Assembly: GCA_029624815.1 (NCBI GenBank)
Contig: JARSSH010000044.1
Location: 1-64,000, forward strand
Length of the DNA: 64,000 bases
From: Candidatus Competibacter sp.
GTDB taxonomy: Bacteria; Pseudomonadota; Gammaproteobacteria; Competibacterales; Competibacteraceae
Reading direction: 5' to 3'
The notes beneath the pieces were generated by a model, which made no database searches, was not told the DNA's origin, and saw only the letters and a list, made by a program, of their open reading frames with translations. Of this stretch, positions 3,701 through 36,111 are shown one piece after another; the stretch's first letter is position 1, and each line of letters opens with the position of its first letter. A program made the position numbers and the translations under genes.

Positions 3701-5119
3701 CTGAATTACGCCGGTAACGCGGTCAAGTTCACCGAGCGCGGTTCCATCGCCTTGCGCGCCCAGTTGCTGGGCGACGACGGCGCCAACCTCCAGGTGCGTT
3801 TCGAGGTACAGGACACCGGCGTCGGCATCGCGCCGGACATCCACACCCGACTGTTCGAAGCCTTCGCCCAGGCCGACGCCTCCACCACGCGCAAGCACGG
3901 CGGCACCGGCCTCGGGCTGGCGATCACCCAACGGCTGGCGCAACTGATGGGCGGCGAGGTGGGGGTGGAGAGCGAACCGGGTCGGGGCAGCACCTTTTGG
4001 TTTACCACGCGGCTGGGTCGAGGGCAGCCGATCTCGCCCGCCGTGGCCGAGGTGGTCGCGGGCGACGCCGGGATGGCCTTGCGCCGCCGTTGCGCCGGAG
4101 CGCGGCTGCTGCTGGCGGAGGATAACGCCATCAACCGGGAGGTGGCGCTGGAGCTGTTGCACGGGGTGGGGCTGACGGTGGACACGGCGGTGGATGGCCG
4201 GGACGCGGTGGCCAGGGCCGGCGCCCAGTCCTACGACCTGATTCTGATGGACGTGCAGATGCCGGAGCTGGACGGCCTGGCGGCCACTCGGGCGATTCGC
4301 GTTCAGGGCGATCCGGTCCATCCGCCGATTCTGGCGATGACCGCCAACGTGTTCGAGGAAGACCGCCAGGCCTGTCTGGCCGCCGGGATGAACGATTTCG
4401 TCGCCAAGCCGGTGGACCCGGAACGGCTGTTCGCCACGCTGCTGCGTTGGCTGCCGGCGCGGACGGGGGGCGAGCCGGCCGCTCCCTCCCCGTCATGGTC
4501 GGAATCCGATCCGGTGTCGCTGGCGCGTCTGAGCGCGATCCCCGGTCTGGAGACCGCCGCCGGTCTGAAAGCGCTGAACGGCAATGGGCCTCGTTATGCC
4601 GAGCTGTTGCGGCGCTACGCCATCGATCACGCCGACGACGCGGACCGGTTGCGCCAGGCGGTGGCCAGCGGCGATGTTCCGGAAGCCCGGCGGCTGGCGC
4701 ATTCGCTTAAAAGCGTATCCGGCACGCTGGGTGTGGCGGGAATCCAGCAGCTTGCCGCCGAGTTGGAAGCGGCGATCGCCGCCGGCGACGAACCGGCGCG
4801 GGTGGCGGCGCGGATTGATGCGGTGGCGGCGGAAATCGTCCCGCTGACCGGGAAGATTCTCGCCGTCCTGGCGGAGGACGCGGAGCCCGACCGGGCGCCC
4901 GAAGTGGACCGGGCCGTCCTGAGGCGGGCGCTCGCCGAACTGGAGCCGTTGCTGGCGGCGTCCAAGCTGCGCGCCAATCAGGTGTTCGCGGCCCATCGGG
5001 CGCTGTTCAAGGCCGCCTTCGGGCCGCTGGGGGCGGAGCTGGAGCGGCGGATCGAGCGCTTCGAATATCCCGAGGCGCTGGATATTCTGCGCGCTCTGCC
5101 CACCCTCCGGCGCGAATGA
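701..5119 (+). CDS. hybrid sensor histidine kinase (TM sensor, PAS, GAF, PAS, HisKA, HATPase, REC, Hpt)
   Basis: A 1472-residue membrane-bound hybrid kinase. Two hydrophobic segments near residues 20-65 and another at about 96-117 precede a roughly 260-residue extracytoplasmic sensor region, closed by a membrane segment at about 381-402. Then come a PAS domain (about 440-560), a GAF domain (about 580-720), a second PAS with PAC (about 735-850), a coiled coil, and the HisKA motif [14 protein letters not shown] with phospho-acceptor His890. The HATPase follows (N box NYAGNAVKF). A receiver domain has [10 protein letters not shown] with Asp1184, and a C-terminal Hpt domain has [10 protein letters not shown] with His1334. 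This gives a complete His-Asp-His relay, so the output must pass to a separate response regulator, none of which is adjacent. Its 3' end faces the PFK gene at 13 bases. Confidence 0.95.
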
Positions 5120-5132
5120 AGGCCAGCGAGGT

Positions 5133-7352
<2,220 letters not shown>

Positions 7353-7418: not shown

Positions 7419-8573
7419 TTACCGTAGCAGCGCCAGGAACATCCCGGCGGCCACCGCCGATCCGATCACGCCGGCCACGTTGGGGCCCATGGCCGCCATC
7501 AGCGGGTTGACCTCTCCATCGGTCTGCTCGGAAACGAACTTCTGCACCACCCGGGCCGACATCGGCACCGCCGATACGCCGGCCGCGCCGATACAGGGGT
7601 TGATGCGCCGGCCTTCCGGCAGGAACCGATTGAGCAGCTTGGCGAACAGGATACCCCCCGCCGTGCTACAGGCGAAAGCCACCGCGCCCAGCATCAGGAT
7701 GAACAAGGTTTGCGGGCTCAGGAAGGTATCGCCCTGCATGGTCGCGCCGACCGCCAGCCCGAGGAAAATGGTGACGATGTTGATCAGCGATCCGCCGGCC
7801 GCCGTGCTCAGCCGGTCGGTGACGCCGGATTCCCGCAACAGGTTGCCGAACATCAGCATGCCGATCAGCGGCGCGCTGGAGGGGATGGCCAGGGCGGTCA
7901 GTACGGTGATGAAGATCGGGAAAGCGATGACCGCCGTCTGCGATACCGGCCGAGCTTGGGGCATGTGGATGGCGCGCTCCTCGGGAGTGGTCAGCAGGCG
8001 CAGGATCGGCGGCTGGATCACCGGCACCAGCGCCATGTAGCTGTAAGCGGCCACCGCCACCGCGCCCAGCAGGTGCGGGGCGAGAATGGCGGTCAGGTAA
8101 ATGGAAGTCGGTCCGTCCGCCCCGCCGATGATGCCGATCGACGCCGCTTCCTCGGCCGTGAAACCGAACAGGTAGAAGGCGCCCAGCGCGGCGACGAAAA
8201 TGCCCAACTGGGCCGCCGCCCCGAGCAGCAGGGTGATCGGCCGGCTCAGCAGCGGCCGGAAGTCGGTCAGCGCGCCTACTCCCATGAAAATCACCGGCGG
8301 CAGCAACTGAGTCTTGATGCCCATGCCGTAGATCAGTTGCAGCAGGGGTACGGTTTGACCGGGTTCCGCGTGATAGCCGCTGGAGGCGCCGAGCATGGCC
8401 GCCGGCAGATTGGCCAGCAGCGCGCCAAAGCCGATGGGGATCAGCAGCAGCGGCTCGTAATTCTTCTTTACCGCCAGGTAGACCAGCAGCCCGGCGATTC
8501 CGAACATGACCAGGCTTTGCCAGGTCAGCCCGCGGAACCCGCTTTGGGCGATCAGTTCCGACAAGGTATCCAT
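7419..8573 (-). CDS. oadB: sodium-translocating decarboxylase beta subunit
   Basis: Multipass membrane protein of 384 residues matching the beta subunit of Na+-pumping biotin decarboxylases. It decarboxylates the carboxybiotin delivered by the alpha subunit and exports Na+. Visible landmarks are repeated hydrophobic segments, GIIGGADGPTSIYL in the middle, and GPNVAGVIGSAVAAG near the C terminus, both conserved in the family. The start lies one base after the alpha-subunit stop codon, so the two are almost certainly co-translated. Oxaloacetate is the most likely substrate because of the alpha subunit, but methylmalonyl-CoA and glutaconyl-CoA decarboxylases use the same type of beta subunit. 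Confidence 0.93.
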   Translation of the reverse strand: MDTLSELIAQSGFRGLTWQSLVMFGIAGLLVYLAVKKNYEPLLLIPIGFGALLANLPAAMLGASSGYHAEPGQTVPLLQLIYGMGIKTQLLPPVIFMGVGALTDFRPLLSRPITLLLGAAAQLGIFVAALGAFYLFGFTAEEAASIGIIGGADGPTSIYLTAILAPHLLGAVAVAAYSYMALVPVIQPPILRLLTTPEERAIHMPQARPVSQTAVIAFPIFITVLTALAIPSSAPLIGMLMFGNLLRESGVTDRLSTAAGGSLINIVTIFLGLAVGATMQGDTFLSPQTLFILMLGAVAFACSTAGGILFAKLLNRFLPEGRRINPCIGAAGVSAVPMSARVVQKFVSEQTDGEVNPLMAAMGPNVAGVIGSAVAAGMFLALLR

Positions 8574-8574
8574 G

Positions 8575-10521
8575 TTAGCCGCCGAGGGTCAGGATAGGCT
8601 TGCCGGCGAAGACCTCGCTGCCGAGTTCGGCGTTGATTTCCACCACCGTGCCGTCGCGGGGCGCGCGCACGTCGTGCTTGGCTTTCATGGCCTCGACGGC
8701 GGCCACGACCTGGCCCTTGCGCACCGCATCGCCCACTTTGACGTGGATGTCCACCAGTTCGACCTTGCCCTCGAACGGCGAGAACACCGGCGTGCGCTCC
8801 CCGGCGCTGGCCAGCGCCGGGCTTGGCGCGGCGGCGACGGGAGCGATGGCGGGAACAGGGGCCGCGCTCGCCGGACTCGCGCCCGCCGGCGGTTCGATGG
8901 TGATGCGGAAGGTGCGGGTCACGGCCCCTTCGACCACGGTGCATTGGGTGGTGACCGGTGCGCTGAAGGCGGGGGCGGCGGCGACCGGCGCGGGAGTGGG
9001 AGCCGCTGGAGCCGGGACGGGGGTGGGAGCCGCTGGGGCGGGAGGCGCCGCCTGGACCGGCGTCGGGATGGTTTCGGCGGCCGGCTTTTCCTTGCTTTTC
9101 AGCGGCAGGTTGATCTTGGCCTTGCCGCTCAACAGCCGGATGCCTTCGTTCAATTCCATGTTCCTGCCCGGCACGATGGCGGAGGCGACCAGGAAAATAT
9201 TTTCTTCGGTTGGCGGCAGCTTGCGCTCGCGCAGCGCCTCTTCGGCGGCGGCGATGCTGTCCGGGGCCTCTTCCAGCGGATCGCCGGCGAACGGCTCCAG
9301 CTTGAGCTGCTCGGCGGCGACCTGGATCACCGTGGGGTCCGGCGGTTCCGGCGTGCGGCCGAAGTAGCCGAGCACCGAGCGGCCGTAGCCGGCGTCGATT
9401 TTCTTCCAGCGGCCGTGCAGCACGTTGTTGAAGGCTTGCAGCCAGTATTGCTGGCTGCCGGGCGTCACGCTGGTCCAGGCCCCGCCGGCCCGCACCACTT
9501 CGGGAAACTCGGCCAGCACCTCGCCGTAGCGATGGAGAATGCCGGCTTCCGCCATCATGTGCACATTGGGGCCGATGGCGCCGCCCGGCATCGGGAAGTT
9601 GACCACTCGGGCGTCGGCCGACGTGGTGACCGGATTGAACGCATAATCCTTGAGTCCCTCGTCGAGCAGTTTTTCCAGCTCGTCCATCTTGCCGGCGTCG
9701 ATATCGAGCGAGTAGCCGGTGCCCTTGAGTGCGTGCCACATCGAACGCACGTCCGGTTGCGCGGTGCCGGAGGCCAGGGGTCGCACCGACAGGTCGATGC
9801 GGTCCACCCCGCCGGCGATGCCGGCCATGTAGCAGGCCACCGCCATCGACGCGGTGTCGTGGGTGTGCATGGACAGCGGCACTTCGTGCGGCAGGATTTT
9901 CTTCAGGCCCTTGGCGGTTTCGTAGCAGGTATGCGGGTCGGTGGTGCCGGAGGCGTCTTTCATGCACACCGAGTCGAAGTGGAGTCCCGCATCCAGCAGG
10001 CGCTTGATTATCCGGACATAGAATTCCGGGGTATGGACCCGATCGGATCGGTACGGCAGGCCCATCATCGCCACGCAGACCTGATGGCGCATCCCGGCGT
10101 CCACGATGGGTTTGCCGGTCTTGATCAAGTTGTCCACGTCGTTCATGAAATCGAAATTGCGGTCGATGGTGGTGCCGTGTTTTTTCATCAGCCGCGCCTG
10201 CATCTCCAGCGCCTTGAGTCGCTGCGTGGTCAGGGTGACGCCGGACACCGAGCGGGTGAGGATTTGCAGGTCGGCGTTCGGACCGACCGCCTCGCGCATC
10301 TGGTCCATGCAGGTGAACGGATCCTCGCCGGCATAAAAGTAGGGCGCCTGGTAGCGAGCGCCGCCGCCGAATTCGAAATGGCGCACGCCCATCGCGGCGG
10401 CGGCCTGCATGGCGGGCAGCACGTCCTTGACGCGCACCTTGCCGCCGAACACGCTTTGCAATCCATCGCGGAAGGCGGTCAGCATGACATGGATTTTTTT
10501 TGGGGTGGGTGCAAAGATCAT
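8575..10521 (-). CDS. oadA: oxaloacetate decarboxylase alpha subunit (carboxyltransferase plus biotin carrier)
   Basis: A 648-residue protein with an N-terminal carboxyltransferase TIM barrel, a PYC_OADA middle domain and a C-terminal biotinyl domain. Metal and active-site residues visible are Asp19 (in FRDGLQS), Lys188 in CMKDASG and His219/His221 in MHTHD. The biotin-accepting lysine is Lys613 in EAMKAKH, reached through a long Pro/Ala linker at about 495-530. It would move CO2 from oxaloacetate to biotin for the membrane beta subunit. The N-terminal motif is RDGLQS rather than the common RDAHQS, and the following residues also differ from classical OadA, so this belongs to a divergent branch. 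Pyruvate carboxylase subunit B is an alternative label, but the adjacent beta and gamma subunits argue for a decarboxylase. Confidence 0.88.
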   Translation of the reverse strand: MIFAPTPKKIHVMLTAFRDGLQSVFGGKVRVKDVLPAMQAAAAMGVRHFEFGGGARYQAPYFYAGEDPFTCMDQMREAVGPNADLQILTRSVSGVTLTTQRLKALEMQARLMKKHGTTIDRNFDFMNDVDNLIKTGKPIVDAGMRHQVCVAMMGLPYRSDRVHTPEFYVRIIKRLLDAGLHFDSVCMKDASGTTDPHTCYETAKGLKKILPHEVPLSMHTHDTASMAVACYMAGIAGGVDRIDLSVRPLASGTAQPDVRSMWHALKGTGYSLDIDAGKMDELEKLLDEGLKDYAFNPVTTSADARVVNFPMPGGAIGPNVHMMAEAGILHRYGEVLAEFPEVVRAGGAWTSVTPGSQQYWLQAFNNVLHGRWKKIDAGYGRSVLGYFGRTPEPPDPTVIQVAAEQLKLEPFAGDPLEEAPDSIAAAEEALRERKLPPTEENIFLVASAIVPGRNMELNEGIRLLSGKAKINLPLKSKEKPAAETIPTPVQAAPPAPAAPTPVPAPAAPTPAPVAAAPAFSAPVTTQCTVVEGAVTRTFRITIEPPAGASPASAAPVPAIAPVAAAPSPALASAGERTPVFSPFEGKVELVDIHVKVGDAVRKGQVVAAVEAMKAKHDVRAPRDGTVVEINAELGSEVFAGKPILTLGG

Positions 10522-25097: not shown

Positions 25098-26849
25098 TCA
25101 CGCCCCGATCAATTTCCGGACCACGTCGGTCATGGAAATGACGCCGGTGGGCTGGTGGTTCTCGGTGACCACCAGGCGGTGCATGCGCCGACCGGTCATC
25201 AGGCTGACCGCCTCGCTGAGCAGCATGTCGGCGTCGCAGGTGGCGCAACCGGGGGTCATGACGTTCTTGGCCAGCAGCGCGCGCGCTTCCTCTGGTGTCC
25301 GACCCTGGCGGGCCAGCACCAGATCGGTCTGCGACACCACGCCGGTGGCCTGGCCGCCGTCCATCACCACCACCGCGTGGATTTCCTGGTCGATCATCAG
25401 TTTCGCCACCTGGGCGACGCTGTCGTCCGGTCCGCAGGCGATGATGCCGCGATGCATCAGATCCTTGACCCGGGCGCCGTCGTCGCTGATGGCGATGGCC
25501 TCGGCCTGGGCCACGCTGGGCAGCGGTTCGGACATCGGGTAGGGGTGCGGGGTGGTGTGGATATCGCCCTGGGGCAGGGTCGGATGCGGGATCGCCACCG
25601 GCGGCGGGCCGCTGGCGCCCTGACCGAACGCGGTCGCGCCGACCAGCACCGCCATGTTGCCGTGCGGGTGCTTGTTTTCGTACATCAGTTGATGGGCGAC
25701 CGGGATTTCCTGGTAGGTGAAGGCCCGCGACAGGCAGGGATCGAGCAGGCCGCGCAGGGCCAGTGCGTTCATTTGGTTGGATTGCTCGGTGTTGGCGAAG
25801 TGCGAGCCTTGCAGGCGTTTTTGCCGCATCCACAGGTAGCGCAGATCGACGGTGGCGTTGTAGCCGGTGGTGCCGGCGCAGACCACCACCATGCCGCCGG
25901 TGTCGCAGACGAAGATGGAGGTGGGGATGGTGGTTTCGCCGGGGTGCTCAAACACGAGGTTGGGGGCGCGCTTTTCGCCCAGCACCTCCCAGATCCTGGC
26001 CCCGAAGGCGCGCACGCCCTTCATCCATTTGGCGTAGCCGACGTTGTCCTTCCAGTGCGGCAACATGCCCCAGTGGTCGAAGTCGTTGCGGTTGATGCAG
26101 CCCTTGGCGCCGAGCTTCATGCAGTAGTCGAATTTGTCCTCGCCGGAGACCATGGCGATCGACGTGGCGCCGGCCGCCTTGGCGATCTGAATAGCCATGG
26201 AGCCCAAGCCGCCCGCCCCGCCCCAGATCAGGGCGACGTCGCCTTTCTTGATGGCGTTGGCGCCCCAGCCGTGCAGCATCCGCCAGGCGGTGGCCGCGAC
26301 CAGGGTGTAGGCGGCCGCTTCTTCCCAGGTCATGTGCTTGGGTTTGGGCATGCATTGCTGGGCCTGCACCTTGGTGAATTGGGCGAAGCTGCCCCAGTTG
26401 GTTTCGTAGCCCCAGATGCGGAAGGTGGGCGAGTACATGGGGTCGCCGCCGCTTTTGACCCAGTCGCAGTTCCGGCTGTATTGACCGCAGTGCATCACCA
26501 CTTCGTCGCCCACCTGGACGTTGGTGACGTCCTTGCCGACCTGGTAGACGATGCCCGAGGCGTCGCTGCCGCCAATGTGAAAGTCTTCCTTTTCGCCGGC
26601 CTTGTTGCGCGCGCCGATGACGTTGACCGGGATACCCAGCCCGGCCCAGACGTTGTTGTAGTTGATCCCGGCCGCCATGACGTAGACCAGCACTTCGTCG
26701 GCGGCAATCGGGGGGATGTCCACCACTTCCTGTTGAAACGCTTCCATCGGCGTCCCGAAACGTTCCGGGCGAATCAGCCAGGCATGCATCTTGGCGGGCA
26801 CCGCGCCCAGCGGCGGTTGGTCGGCGATGTCATACAGTTCTTTGGTCAT
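25098..26849 (-). CDS. ccr: crotonyl-CoA carboxylase/reductase fused to a CBS-domain pair
   Basis: A 583-residue protein. Residues 1 to about 435 are a crotonyl-CoA carboxylase/reductase of the zinc-free medium-chain dehydrogenase type, the NADPH-dependent CO2-fixing step of the ethylmalonyl-CoA pathway. Landmarks are [28 protein letters not shown], the NADPH loop [13 protein letters not shown] and GSHFANTEQ with the His known to matter in carboxylation. After a Pro/His-rich linker, residues 461-583 form two CBS motifs ([18 protein letters not shown] and NVMTP ... [10 protein letters not shown]). CBS pairs often bind adenine nucleotides, so allosteric control is plausible. The fusion is unusual. 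It is 43 bases below the carbonic anhydrase gene on the same strand. Confidence 0.93.
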
Positions 26850-27961: not shown

Positions 27962-28075
27962 GAAGCCGCTCCTTAATCGAGTTGAAAACACCATGAAGTG
28001 TAAGGGTAGGGAAAATAGCCAACAATCCGAATAATATTGAACAATCATTCGATTTATTCGATGTATTGGAGTCTT

Positions 28076-28990
28076 ATGGCCAGTCTCAACTTCAAGCACC
28101 TGCGTTATTTCTGGATGGTCGCCAAGGCGGGCGGCATCGCCGGCGCCAGTAAGCAATTGCACCTGACGCCGCAATCCATCAGCGGCCAATTGAACGAATT
28201 GGAAGCCAGTCTTGGCGTCGAGCTGTTGCGCCGCGTCGGACGTGGTCTGGAATTGACCGAGATGGGGCGGCGCGTTTTCAGCTACGCGGACGAAATCTTC
28301 GCGCTCGGCAACGAACTGCTGGAAGTCGCCCTCGACCGGACGGCGCGCAAAAGCCTGCCGTTTCGGGTCGGCATCGCCGATTCGGTGCCGAAGTCGGTGG
28401 CGTACCGCGTGGTCGAGCCGGCGCTGCGCATCGCCGAACCGGTACGGCTGATCTGTCGGGAGGGCCGGCTGGCGCCGTTGCTGGCGGAGATGGCCGTTCA
28501 TCATCTCGATTTGGTGATCGCCGACCGGCCCATGCCCACCAATCTGAACGTCCGGGGCTACAGCCACTTTCTCGGGGAAAGCGATTTGACGGTGTTCGCC
28601 ACGCCGAGTCTGACGCGGTCACTGGCGGGGACGTTTCCCGCGCTGCTCGACAAGGCGCCGTTCCTGCTGCCGGGCGAGGATGTCGCCACGCGACCCAAAC
28701 TGATTCAATGGTTCGAGGCCCAGCATCTGTACCCGCGCATCGTCGGCGAATTCGACGACAGCGCCCTGCTCAAGGCGTTCGGTCAGGCCGGCGCCGGTTT
28801 GTTTGTGGCGCCCACGGCGATTTCCGGCTACGTGTGCCGGCAATACGCGGTTCAAGCGGTCGGTCGCATCGATTCGGTGACCGAGCAGCTCTACGCCATC
28901 ACCACCGAGCGCCGGCTGCTGCATCCGGCCATCGTCGCGGTCGTTCAGGCCACGCAGCGCGAGTTTTTCGGAAAACCACAAGCGACTTGA
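28076..28990 (+). CDS. nhaR: LysR-family regulator, NhaR-like
   Basis: A 304-residue LysR regulator. The DNA-binding head LRYFWMVAKAGGIAGASKQL and HLTPQSISGQLNELEASLG is the NhaR variant, which differs from most LysR proteins. The effector domain from about residue 90 has VGIADSVPKSVAYRVVEPAL. NhaR proteins answer to Na+ and activate Na+/H+ antiporters, but no antiporter gene is here. ATG 28076 with TTGGAG upstream is preferred over 28037. The 114-base gap to HPF is AT-rich and must hold both promoters. Confidence 0.85.
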   Translation: MASLNFKHLRYFWMVAKAGGIAGASKQLHLTPQSISGQLNELEASLGVELLRRVGRGLELTEMGRRVFSYADEIFALGNELLEVALDRTARKSLPFRVGIADSVPKSVAYRVVEPALRIAEPVRLICREGRLAPLLAEMAVHHLDLVIADRPMPTNLNVRGYSHFLGESDLTVFATPSLTRSLAGTFPALLDKAPFLLPGEDVATRPKLIQWFEAQHLYPRIVGEFDDSALLKAFGQAGAGLFVAPTAISGYVCRQYAVQAVGRIDSVTEQLYAITTERRLLHPAIVAVVQATQREFFGKPQAT

Positions 28991-29083
28991 TCGGCATTGG
29001 ATTTTTCTGGAACGACCGTGTCGTCTCCTTGCGCTTGACCGGTTTGCTACAATGATTCAACCCACGCATCCACACCGCGCGCC

Positions 29084-30088
29084 ATGGCAATAAGATCCGC
29101 TTCCGACGGCGACCGGCGTATCGCGACCTCTCCGAGCGCCGAGCCCTCCCGCGTCATTCCCCTGGACCTGGACGACTACCGGTCGCTGGTTCGCTTGGAC
29201 GAACCGTTCGTCGCGCCTCCTCCCGTCCCGGCGGCGGCGGACCGGCGGGCCGCTCTGGTGGATGAACTCCTGACCTACCTGCAAGCCGAACGCGGCGAGA
29301 CCGGCGGCGGGAATAGGTCGTCCCGCGACGAGAAGCGGCGCTGGCTGCGCGCCCTGCTGACCGTGCGCGGACCCGACCCGTTGCCGGACTGGGTTCATGA
29401 TCGACTGGATCGGCTCCTGCGGCGCGAGGTTCTCGATAGAGGGGTGACGGATATCGCGAATCTGCCGCGCCTTCCTCGGAATTGGCTTGGCGCCGACCGT
29501 GATGCCGCGACCACCGCTATCCTGTGGCGAGGAGATATCGCCACCTTGAACGCCGACGCGATCGTCAACGCGGCCAATGCGCAAATGCTGGGTTGTTTCC
29601 AGCCTTTTCACGGTTGCATCGACAACGCCATCCACTCGGCGGCCGGTCCCCGCGTCCGCGAGGATTGCGACAAGATCATGCGGCGTCAGGGCGGCGCCGA
29701 GGGGACGGGCTGGGCCAAGGTGACGCGCGCCTACAATCTGCCGTCCCGATACATCCTGCACACGGTCGGTCCCATTGTCGCGCCGGACCGGTTGCGACCC
29801 GAACACGAACGGTGGCTGGCCGCCTGCTACCGGTCGTGTCTGGATCTGGCCAGCCGGGTGCGGGACATTCGCTCGGTCGCCTTCTGCGCTATTTCGACCG
29901 GCGTGTTCGGTTTCCCGCGCGAACCGGCGGCGCGGGTCGCGTTGCGCGCCATCAGCGGCTGGCTGGACGATCATCCCGGCGCGCTCGATTCGATCGTCCT
30001 GAACGTGTTCAGCCAAGACGATTTCCAAATCTACCAACGCCTGCTGCGGGGCGAGGGAACGGAGGAAACCCATGTTCGACCACCATGA
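29084..30088 (+). CDS. zinc-containing macrodomain protein-ADP-ribose hydrolase
   Basis: A 334-residue protein with a helical N-terminal domain (about 1-135) and a C-terminal macrodomain. The macrodomain reads DIATLNADAIVNAANAQMLG, then CFQPFHGCIDNAIH, where Cys171, His176 and Cys178 are the zinc-site residues of the class partnered with SirTM sirtuins. GVFGFP lies near the end of the fold. This class removes ADP-ribose from modified proteins. Its 3' end overlaps the sirtuin gene by 17 bases, so the two are one functional unit. Confidence 0.9.
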   Translation: MAIRSASDGDRRIATSPSAEPSRVIPLDLDDYRSLVRLDEPFVAPPPVPAAADRRAALVDELLTYLQAERGETGGGNRSSRDEKRRWLRALLTVRGPDPLPDWVHDRLDRLLRREVLDRGVTDIANLPRLPRNWLGADRDAATTAILWRGDIATLNADAIVNAANAQMLGCFQPFHGCIDNAIHSAAGPRVREDCDKIMRRQGGAEGTGWAKVTRAYNLPSRYILHTVGPIVAPDRLRPEHERWLAACYRSCLDLASRVRDIRSVAFCAISTGVFGFPREPAARVALRAISGWLDDHPGALDSIVLNVFSQDDFQIYQRLLRGEGTEETHVRPP

Positions 30089-30950
30089 CATCCAGCGTTG
30101 TCGCGATCTGCTGCGCCAGGCCAACGCCGTGCTGATCGGCGCCGGCGCCGGTCTGGCCGTCGAGGCCGGCATCGATTATATGGACACGAAATCGTTCGCC
30201 CGGGATTTTCCCGGCATGGTGAAACTCGGTTTCCGTCGGCGGGCCGAGTTGATGGGCTATTCGGACTGGAGCCCCGAACTGAAATGGGGCTATCTGGCGG
30301 CCAACGTGAATCAGGTGCGGTTCCAGGCGTCGCCACACCCGGTCTATGCCCGGCTGTTGGATCTGGTGCGGGAAAAGGAGTATTTCGTCGTCACCTCCAA
30401 CGTGGATGGGTTGTTTACCAAGAACGGTTTTGCCGAAGACCGGCTGTTTACGCCGCAGGGCGACTACGCGCTCATGCAGTGTCAAACGCCCTGTTCGAAC
30501 GCCGTCTGGCCGAGTTGGCCGGCGATCGAACGCATCCTGCCGAAGATCGACCCGGCAACCCAGGTGGTGACGGATTCCAGCGTTCTCCCTTACTGTCCCA
30601 ACTGCGGCGAGGACGTGATCATGAACGTGCGCGGTGGTCGCTGGTTTATCGAGGATCCTTACCGGGAGCAGGCCGAGCGCCTTGACCGATGGCTGGATAA
30701 CAGCCATGACCGGGATTTGCTGGTTCTGGAAATCGGCGCCGGTTTTAACACGCCCAGCGTCATCCGTTGGCCGATGGAGCGCATCGTGCACGCCCATCCT
30801 CGCGCCCATCTCATCCGGGTGAACCTGCAATATCCGCAAGTGCCCCGGGAAATCGCCGGCAAGTCGGTCATGTTGCAAGGTTCCGCCATGGGCGCGGTCA
30901 CGGCGATCTGGAAAGAGATGGGACTGGAAAAATTCAGTGCGCTAGCATGA
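30072..30950 (+). CDS. class-M sirtuin (SirTM), protein ADP-ribosyltransferase
   Basis: A 292-residue Sir2-fold protein. NAD-binding GAGAGLAVEAGIDY begins at residue 23, and TSNVD (108-112) replaces the TQNID of deacylase sirtuins. PQGDYALMQC (128-137) replaces the usual catalytic His region. Four cysteines (137, 141, 175, 178) can bind zinc. These changes mark the SirTM class, shown in some bacteria and fungi to ADP-ribosylate a lipoylated GcvH-like protein, with the linked macrodomain reversing it. Here no GcvH-L or lipoate ligase gene is adjacent, so the target is unknown. Confidence 0.9.
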   Translation: MFDHHDIQRCRDLLRQANAVLIGAGAGLAVEAGIDYMDTKSFARDFPGMVKLGFRRRAELMGYSDWSPELKWGYLAANVNQVRFQASPHPVYARLLDLVREKEYFVVTSNVDGLFTKNGFAEDRLFTPQGDYALMQCQTPCSNAVWPSWPAIERILPKIDPATQVVTDSSVLPYCPNCGEDVIMNVRGGRWFIEDPYREQAERLDRWLDNSHDRDLLVLEIGAGFNTPSVIRWPMERIVHAHPRAHLIRVNLQYPQVPREIAGKSVMLQGSAMGAVTAIWKEMGLEKFSALA

Positions 30951-31016: not shown

Positions 31017-31850
31017 ATGGCCCATCCACTCAACCTGCTGGTCATCGATCTCGAAACCCGCCCCGATACCGCGATTCTGCCGGAGGACCGCGATCCCGAA
31101 GCATTCCCCAAGCCGATCCAGCATGAAATCGTGACCTTGGGGTTTCTGCTGGCGCGCATCGAGCGGGACGGCGAATACGAACGCTACAGCATGCGCAAAC
31201 TGGGCGCGGCCAGCCTCGCCGAACGCGGCGAGCGGGAGATTCTGGCCGGGTTCTGGCAACTGATCGACAAGCAGCGGCCCCGTCTGGTGACCTGGAACGG
31301 CCGGAGCTTCGACGCCGCCGTGCTCAAGCAGCGCTCCCTGATTCACGGGCTGGCCGCCTACAACTGGCATCGCACCGATCCCCGCTTCGGCTACGACTAC
31401 CGCTACGAATCCAACTGGCATTGCGACCTGATGGATGCGTTGAGCGACTTCGGCGCTTCGCCGCGGCTGGGTTTGGATGAAGCGGCCCGCGCCCTGGGCC
31501 TGCCGGGCAAATGGAACGGTTGTGGCGCGGCGGTGGCGGAGCAGGCCGCCACTGGCGATTACGCCGCCATCAATCGTTATTGCGAGGGCGACGTGCTCAA
31601 CACCTATGTCCTTTACCTGCGCTGGGCCTGCCTCGGCACCCGGCTCAGCGCGCGGAGTCACAACGCCAGTGTGCAACACCTGCTGGATTATCTGGAGGCG
31701 AACCGCGAGCAACAGCCGCATTGGGGCGAGTTCGCCGACCGCTGGCGGGCCAGCGACCGGCCGTGCCCGCTGTTTGTAAGCGAGCCGCTCGATGGGCCGG
31801 GGCCGCAGTTGCCGGAATCGCACCTGAGAAGCGAGGATGTGATGCCGTGA
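31017..31850 (+). CDS. predicted 3'-5' exonuclease, PolB-like
   Basis: A 277-residue DnaQ/PolB-type exonuclease. Exo I is VIDLETRP (Asp11, Glu13), Exo II is LVTWNGRSFDAAVL, and Exo III is the RYCEGDVLNTYVLYLRW segment with a conserved Asp. It matches the 'predicted 3'-5' exonuclease of the PolB family' that stands alone without a polymerase. The ATG at 31017 begins the fold directly. It follows the sirtuin by 66 bases and could share its transcript. It is the last core gene before the cassette region. Confidence 0.85.
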   Translation: MAHPLNLLVIDLETRPDTAILPEDRDPEAFPKPIQHEIVTLGFLLARIERDGEYERYSMRKLGAASLAERGEREILAGFWQLIDKQRPRLVTWNGRSFDAAVLKQRSLIHGLAAYNWHRTDPRFGYDYRYESNWHCDLMDALSDFGASPRLGLDEAARALGLPGKWNGCGAAVAEQAATGDYAAINRYCEGDVLNTYVLYLRWACLGTRLSARSHNASVQHLLDYLEANREQQPHWGEFADRWRASDRPCPLFVSEPLDGPGPQLPESHLRSEDVMP

Positions 31851-34863: not shown

Positions 34864-36111
34864 ATGAACGAATTGTCTTCCGTGCCGAATGTCGCCGTCG
34901 ACGAGCGTCGGGAAAGCATCCCCCCGCCCATCATCATCAATACCGCGCCACCGGCGCCACCGGCCTGGCGGCGTTCCCGCTTCTGGCTCGGCCTGCTGCT
35001 CGGTCTGATGCTGGCTTGGGGCGGTCCCTACCTGTGGCGCCCGGCGCCAATGCTCGATACGGCGCCGGTTCATCCCGATCGGACCGAGGTGGTTGCCCCG
35101 ATCAAGCGTCAGGTGCCGGCCAAGGTTGCCTTGGCCTACCAAAATCGGAACGGCGAACTGGTGCGCGTGCTGGCCGACGCCGGACAATATTCCGCGTTCG
35201 TGCGCGCCCACGCCGCGAGTTTGGAACAGAGCCGCCAGCAACTGCGCCAACAGGCGCAAGCGCGGTTCGAAGCCGGCATGGATGCGATTTTTCAGGATCC
35301 GCGCCAGCGTGTACCGGTGTTCGCCGACTGGTACTACGGCTACGGCACCAATTATCAACTGCTGTGGGAAGCACTGACTTCCGCCGTCCGCCACCTCGGC
35401 GATGGAGATGTAAAGGAACGGGTCGCCGCCGATCTGGAGCGGGTGCTGCAACAGCACTACGAGTTGCTGGTGCTCAAGCCGGAAATCACCGATCCTCGCC
35501 TGCAACAGCTTTATCGCGATACCCTGGAGCAGGCGCGGCAATCCTATCTGGAGGTGTTGGCCACCATGCAGGCGGAGTTTCAGGTCTTCGTCGCCCGCCA
35601 CACCACCCACCTCGATCCCGGTCAGCCGCCGGCGGCCGAACTGCGCCTGGACTGGCCGGCGCAGTTGCACAAGGTCCGCATCGCCTCGGATGCCAATTCC
35701 ACCTTGGGGGCGTTTCGGGGGATCACCTTGACCACGCTGGGCGCGGCGGCTGGCAAAGTGCTGGGCGGCCAGGTCGGCGCGGCCATCGCCGCCCGGCTCA
35801 GCCTGCCCTTCGTCGAACGAGCGCTGCTGCTGGTCACCGGCGGCGCGGCTGGCGGAACTGGCGGCAGTCTGGGCGGGCCGCTTGGGGCGGCGGCAGGGGT
35901 GGTGATCGGCGCGGGCGCCGGTTTGGCGGTGGACTGGTTGATTCAGGAAGGCATCGAACTGCTGGCGCGGGACAACTTCGAAGCCGAGATTCAAGCCGCG
36001 CTGGCCAGCACCCAGCGGGAGTGGCAAGGGAAACTGCTGCCGCCTCTGCTGGGCGCGGTGGATGCCTGGGTGGACGACACCATCCAGCTTCTGCCCCAGT
36101 TCAAGCCGTAA
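34864..36111 (+). CDS. membrane-anchored protein of unknown function
   Basis: A 415-residue protein. A Pro-rich start is followed by one membrane helix (about 38-58). Residues 85-260 are a long, charged, mostly helical region (QQLRQQAQARFEAG, LERVLQQHYELLVL). From about 275 to 365 there is a Gly/Ala-rich hydrophobic stretch with glycine-zipper spacing (GGAAGGTGGSLGGPLGAAAG), then a short amphipathic tail. GAAGGAG precedes the ATG. I do not recognise a family. The architecture suggests an envelope protein that inserts a Gly-rich segment into a membrane. The thermonuclease gene follows directly. Confidence 0.7.
   Translation: MNELSSVPNVAVDERRESIPPPIIINTAPPAPPAWRRSRFWLGLLLGLMLAWGGPYLWRPAPMLDTAPVHPDRTEVVAPIKRQVPAKVALAYQNRNGELVRVLADAGQYSAFVRAHAASLEQSRQQLRQQAQARFEAGMDAIFQDPRQRVPVFADWYYGYGTNYQLLWEALTSAVRHLGDGDVKERVAADLERVLQQHYELLVLKPEITDPRLQQLYRDTLEQARQSYLEVLATMQAEFQVFVARHTTHLDPGQPPAAELRLDWPAQLHKVRIASDANSTLGAFRGITLTTLGAAAGKVLGGQVGAAIAARLSLPFVERALLLVTGGAAGGTGGSLGGPLGAAAGVVIGAGAGLAVDWLIQEGIELLARDNFEAEIQAALASTQREWQGKLLPPLLGAVDAWVDDTIQLLPQFKP

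Follow-up and report, generated by a model that had tools for sequence, protein, structure and literature searches.

The window, as the whole 64,000-nucleotide stretch of Candidatus Competibacter DNA analysed here is called, contains a gene for a zinc macrodomain (Zn-macro) protein and an overlapping gene for a class-M sirtuin (SirTM). We consider it likely that these two genes constitute a minimal SirTM/Zn-macro module with a promoter of its own, a two-enzyme switch for a target protein whose gene lies at another site in the genome. SirTM is known to add, and Zn-macro to remove, ADP-ribose on GcvH-L (PMC4518038, PMC11490716). In the Competibacter pair, for which both activities are predicted from characterized relatives, SirTM would take ADP-ribose from NAD+ and attach it to a (probably acidic) side chain of a protein encoded elsewhere, and the zinc macrodomain would remove it again from the modified protein. 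Given the published activities of such enzymes, the most probable mechanism is therefore that an unlinked protein is switched by reversible mono-ADP-ribosylation.

The macrodomain and sirtuin genes

The features of the locus are listed in Table 1. The closest relatives of the source genome were Ca. Competibacter phosphatis and Competibacteraceae MAGs, and five pair-bearing Competibacteraceae loci were compared: the window, L015, L016 and L017 from Competibacter, and L018 from a sister genus. The first-pass annotation had placed a 17-base overlap (30072–30088) between the two reading frames and an exonuclease gene 66 bases after the SirTM stop codon; both placements were correct, with the ATG of the exonuclease gene at 31017. 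The length of the overlap was not conserved, being 8 bases in L015 and replaced by a short gap in L018. Compared with four relatives, dN/dS was 0.16–0.24 for the macrodomain gene and 0.11–0.20 for the SirTM gene, and all three genes including the exonuclease gene were under purifying selection (dN/dS 0.10–0.24); the pattern is therefore not one of chance ORFs.

Table 1. Coordinates of the pair and its surroundings in the window.
Feature	Position	Strand	Evidence or remark
Zn-macrodomain protein (predicted protein-ADP-ribose hydrolase), 334 aa	29084..30088	+	NF003163, PF01661, 8RSI, motifs, dN/dS
Class-M sirtuin (SirTM), 292 aa, predicted protein mono-ADP-ribosyltransferase	30072..30950	+	8RSN, 5A3A, residues, tree, dN/dS
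Predicted 3'-5' exonuclease, PF10108 (DNA_pol_B_exo2)	31017..31850	+	179.9 bits; neighbour, judged outside the system
LysR-type regulator, NhaR type	28037..28990	+	NF008284 over cut-off; neighbour of the pair
Conserved upstream block, probable own promoter of the pair	29003..29083	+	Holds extended -10-like element

Neither an Rfam scan nor a tRNA scan gave a match in the window. Elsewhere in the window, a crotonyl-CoA-reductase-like zinc/NADP dehydrogenase with two C-terminal CBS domains is encoded at 25098–26849 (minus strand) and would, provided that the frame is correct, be an unusual regulatory fusion. The minus strand also encodes, at 7419–10521, a carboxylase that has PYC_OADA and biotinyl domains, resembles the oxaloacetate decarboxylase alpha subunit and is followed by a membrane beta-like subunit. 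A conserved protein of 415 aa with no Pfam match is encoded at 34864–36111, and lies downstream of the exonuclease in three loci.

The macrodomain protein scored 294.7 bits against NCBIfam NF003163 (protein-ADP-ribose hydrolase; cut-off 272) and matched PF01661 (7e-35). Its best solved relative was MorMacro from M. oralis (8RSI, E 2.4e-63), and it also matched the zinc macrodomains of S. aureus, S. pyogenes and Fusarium. The Cx4HxC Zn-loop, a motif defined as in PMC11490716, corresponds to C171/H176/C178 and was invariant in the five Competibacteraceae macrodomains; the NAAN motif comprises residues 162–165. The protein consists of an N-terminal extension and the macrodomain, and its N-terminal (3-alpha-bundle) region aligned to MorMacro residues 10–76. 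At the bundle positions of SauMacro Arg42 and Asn46, Arg was kept (R89) and Asn was exchanged for Thr (Thr93), which was also found at this position in the Streptomyces and Vibrio macrodomains. Asn46 of SauMacro has been reported to stabilize the Zn-loop, and fungal Foc1Mfs1, the structure of which is without zinc, has Cys there (PMC11490716). Because Thr93 replaces the Zn-loop-stabilizing Asn, it is uncertain whether the protein retains zinc and, with it, hydrolase activity.

A motif at the N-terminus, LxLxDYxxLIxLxEPF (encoded within 29084–29260 of the window), was common to the Zn-macros of Competibacter, Streptomyces and Niallia and was missing from the other homologues in the alignment; no solved structure matched the segment convincingly. 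The macrodomain tree grouped the Competibacter proteins with those of Streptomyces (support 96/91) and placed the extended-operon enzymes inside a Bacillota/Treponema group, away from the Competibacter/Streptomyces side.

Among solved structures, the SirTM protein matched Foc1Mfs1 (8RSN, E 7e-53) and SpySirTM (5A3A, E 1.5e-26). It carries the class-M QG in place of HG (PQGDY, Q129), and N110 and R187 were kept; these three residues were invariant across the five Competibacteraceae homologues. Mutation of their equivalents in SpySirTM (N118, Q137 and R192) dramatically lowers transfer (PMC4518038). The zinc cysteines are C137/C141/C175/C178. The sirtuin tree placed the protein with class M, apart from the HG-type sirtuins (100/100). 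An overlapping or adjacent Zn-macro gene accompanied the SirTM gene in all five Competibacteraceae loci and in the relatives from Streptomyces, Vibrio and Niallia.

Boundaries and distribution of the pair

The macrodomain/SirTM pair was the only feature shared by the five related loci, whose upstream contexts are of three kinds, and the linkage of the pair to every neighbour was shown to be dispensable. In comparisons of loci that differ in their upstream genes, the last 80 bp before the macrodomain start were similar to those of L015 and L017 (z about 10) but the stretch at 80–160 bp was not (z about 3, or less), and similarity ended approximately 80–90 bp before the start. At 29045–29053 the conserved block carries TGCTACAAT, an extended -10-like element, and TGnTAnAAT was present in all five loci. 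The mechanical sigma-70 promoter scan did not score this element, so that the promoter which the pair probably has at the conserved block is proposed from conservation. The NhaR-type LysR gene was considered as a dedicated regulator and rejected, because it adjoins the pair in only two of the five loci (the window and L016) and is absent in L015, L017 and L018.

The pair was found in 5 of 39 genomes of the family. Other sirtuins of the family (30–36% identity) were rejected as class M, being HG-type. For the class 369 genomes were sampled and for the phylum 398, and matches at E up to 1e-25 were read; those other than the window's own were not class M and were HG wherever the motif was resolved, and none lay within about 1.5 kb of a macrodomain gene. 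Plasmid records contained seven pairs without lipoyl genes outside Competibacteraceae, belonging to Streptomyces, Vibrio, Niallia, Enterococcus casseliflavus, Subdoligranulum, Roseburia and Treponema. The SirTM proteins of Streptomyces and Vibrio showed 45 and 43% identity to that of the window, and the gene order was reversed (SirTM/macrodomain) in Niallia, Treponema and Subdoligranulum. The search of viral contigs gave no relative, and a 5.5 kb record with the label of a Staphylococcus aureus phage gave a single, remote match; on these grounds a phage origin of the pair was rejected.

Plasmid pLPE-58K of Lactiplantibacillus pentosus (L093:4842-7014) encodes two tandem SirTM-like proteins with no macrodomain gene nearby, the second of which is fused to a Cupin_5 (DUF985) domain. 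Because the catalytic position of the first is Q but the zinc cysteines are missing from it, this tandem may be a divergent SirTM-cupin system.

Lipoyl genes and candidate targets

The earlier statement that no gcvH-L or lplA2 lies near the pair held for the window and for the whole source assembly (3.63 Mb, 70 contigs, completeness 99.97%). Neither gcvH-L nor lplA was found within the window, in which the sole GCV_H-like match (8620–8754) was the biotinyl domain of the PYC_OADA carboxylase and no lipoyl carrier. The GCV_H search of the genome gave one full-length match, the canonical GcvH in a gcvT-gcvH-gcvPA operon, and the LplA-B_cat search gave one match, LipB, with a LipA-like frame adjoining. 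Searches with GcvH-L and LplA2 of Aerococcus tenax as queries returned the same GcvH and LipB genes and nothing better; as a positive control, the same tools showed the full OYE/LLM/GcvH-L/macro/SirTM/LplA operon in A. tenax. A GcvH-L/LplA2 locus elsewhere in the genome, for which the first-pass annotation had advised a search, can be excluded within the limits of this assembly. Since neither gene is present anywhere in the near-complete genome, the target is not an operon-encoded GcvH-L. The earlier reading was supported in part: the missing lipoyl genes are real, yet the arrangement is already known, and a special nucleic-acid variant was not supported. We infer that the target of the pair is unlinked and is not a GcvH-L.

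By analogy, the pair probably serves redox or electrophile stress. Among lipoyl-free pairs, an Rrf2 regulator and an NAD(P)H-binding protein were encoded beside those of Niallia, Enterococcus and Treponema, flavodoxin-fold reductases beside those of Niallia and Vibrio, and a nitroreductase beside that of Roseburia. These neighbours are a lead and not a result, because they come from a handful of loci with no background count. In the Competibacter loci no redox gene adjoined the pair, so that the stress role is drawn from distant relatives and from published work on extended-operon and fungal enzymes. More tentatively, the Competibacter/Streptomyces/Vibrio type of pair might modify a new, non-lipoylated class of target, giving environmental bacteria a reversible ADP-ribosylation signal linked to redox or electrophile stress and distinct from the GcvH-L system of pathogens; we regard this as possible and on balance doubtful. 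The type is marked by Thr at the Zn-loop-stabilizing position, and by LxLxDYxxLIxLxEPF in Competibacter, Streptomyces and Niallia.

Action of the pair on an unlinked conventional lipoylated protein, either canonical GcvH or the lipoyl domain of an E2, in the manner of a split extended operon, is unlikely. The genome would offer the substrates, as its gcv operon is complete and it also encodes LipB/LipA and E2-like frames with lipoyl domains. However, minimal-operon and fungal Zn-macros were inactive on GcvH-L, leaving it modified, and active on Glu/Asp-linked ADP-ribose of PARP1, and complexes of macro with canonical GcvH were predicted poorly (PMC11490716). The arginine and lysine residues that form the modelled GcvH-L interface (SpyMacro R172/K175/R183, SauMacro R175/R176; PMC11490716) were not kept at the aligned positions of the Competibacter macrodomain, but it has other arginines nearby, so that the charge argument points neither way. 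Among the 39 family genomes GcvH copy number was not correlated with the pair, GcvH being present with or without it.

A toxin-antitoxin or defence module, in which SirTM would hit an essential component and the macrodomain would be the antidote, as DarG is for DarT, is marginally less probable still. A compact two-gene unit with the macrodomain first and an apparent promoter of its own would suit such a module, as would the patchy occurrence in the family and the several plasmid-borne relatives. The pair had no PADLOC match, on which basis its identity as a known defence system was rejected; the reversed gene order in three genera speaks against a toxin-antitoxin module, and toxicity of a characterized SirTM has not been reported in the SirTM literature cited here. 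The two-enzyme switch on an unlinked protein remains the preferred reading.

The first-pass annotation had also proposed a link to nucleic acid processing through the exonuclease, and a survey of neighbourhoods for this gene. In the window, L015 and L017, and so in all of the four pair-bearing Competibacter genomes except L016, the pair and the exonuclease gene were immediate neighbours despite differing flanks on both sides, and the gap to SirTM in L015 was 66 bases, as in the window. This adjacency is read as shared descent in one genus. In L016, two antisense genes, for a PAS-domain protein and a polyketide-cyclase-like protein on the strand opposite to the pair, occupy the 1.4 kb (4198–5598) between SirTM and the exonuclease; in the sister-genus genome G029, the pair and a neighbouring gene for a KdpD-like sensor kinase are on contig 64, and the exonuclease is on contig 32. 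The exonuclease gene was present in 32 of the 39 Competibacteraceae genomes, including 24 of the 25 good ones, and only 5 of these 32 hold the pair; none of the exonuclease loci examined in pair-lacking genomes had the window's neighbours within 1.5 kb. Outside Competibacteraceae, no exonuclease was found within 5–6 kb of the pairs of eight genera (Streptomyces, Vibrio, Niallia, Enterococcus, Roseburia, Subdoligranulum, Treponema and Aerococcus). The survey therefore showed the exonuclease beside the pair in the three Competibacter loci and never near pairs outside the genus, and the proposed nucleic acid link did not survive it. That the exonuclease is the ADP-ribosylated target or an effector, in a three-gene variant operon for nucleic acid processing, is very improbable, and as a required functional partner this family-wide gene, which mostly occurs without the pair, is refuted by synteny. 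A tempting wrong lead is thereby removed, and the redox-linked neighbours are better candidates.

Relation to known SirTM/Zn-macro systems

Pairs without GcvH-L and LplA2, termed minimal operons, were published in 2015 and 2024, with Methanobrevibacter oralis as an example (PMC4518038, PMC11490716). Their targets were reported as unknown, and the substrate of pairs lacking GcvH-L was stated to be an open question (PMC11490716). Lipoyl-free pairs have been described mainly from pathogens (PMC11490716), and the present pair is from an uncultured, non-pathogenic wastewater gammaproteobacterium. The known arrangement is thus extended to Competibacter, and strains of Streptomyces, Vibrio and Niallia carry relatives of the pair on plasmids.

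The extended operon of Staphylococcus and Streptococcus (GcvH-L, Zn-macro, SirTM, LplA2, OYE and LLM; PMC4518038) shares with Competibacter the two enzymes and their catalytic residues, as well as adjacent and sometimes overlapping Zn-macro and SirTM genes. It has GcvH-L and LplA2 in the operon, whereas the Competibacter pair adjoins none of GcvH-L, LplA2, OYE and LLM, and the genome is without GcvH-L and LplA. The fungal fusion Mfs1 (Foc1Mfs1, 8RSN) provided the best solved SirTM match, and the same two activities are expected of it and of the pair; in contrast to the single chain of Mfs1, the Competibacter enzymes are two proteins. The minimal operon of M. oralis (MorMacro; 8RSI/8RSJ/8RSK) likewise has its Zn-macro and SirTM genes side by side and neither gcvH-L nor lplA2, and its macrodomain is the closest solved one and has the same Zn-loop. 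It is archaeal, whereas the Competibacter pair is gammaproteobacterial, and MorMacro falls on the opposite side of the macrodomain tree from the Competibacter/Streptomyces group. Compared to MorMacro, the Competibacter macrodomain has an extra N-terminal segment of about 55 aa, and Thr93 stands where Asn is conserved in the 3-alpha bundle. As a Zn-macro/SirTM pair standing alone, the Competibacter pair belongs with the minimal operons.
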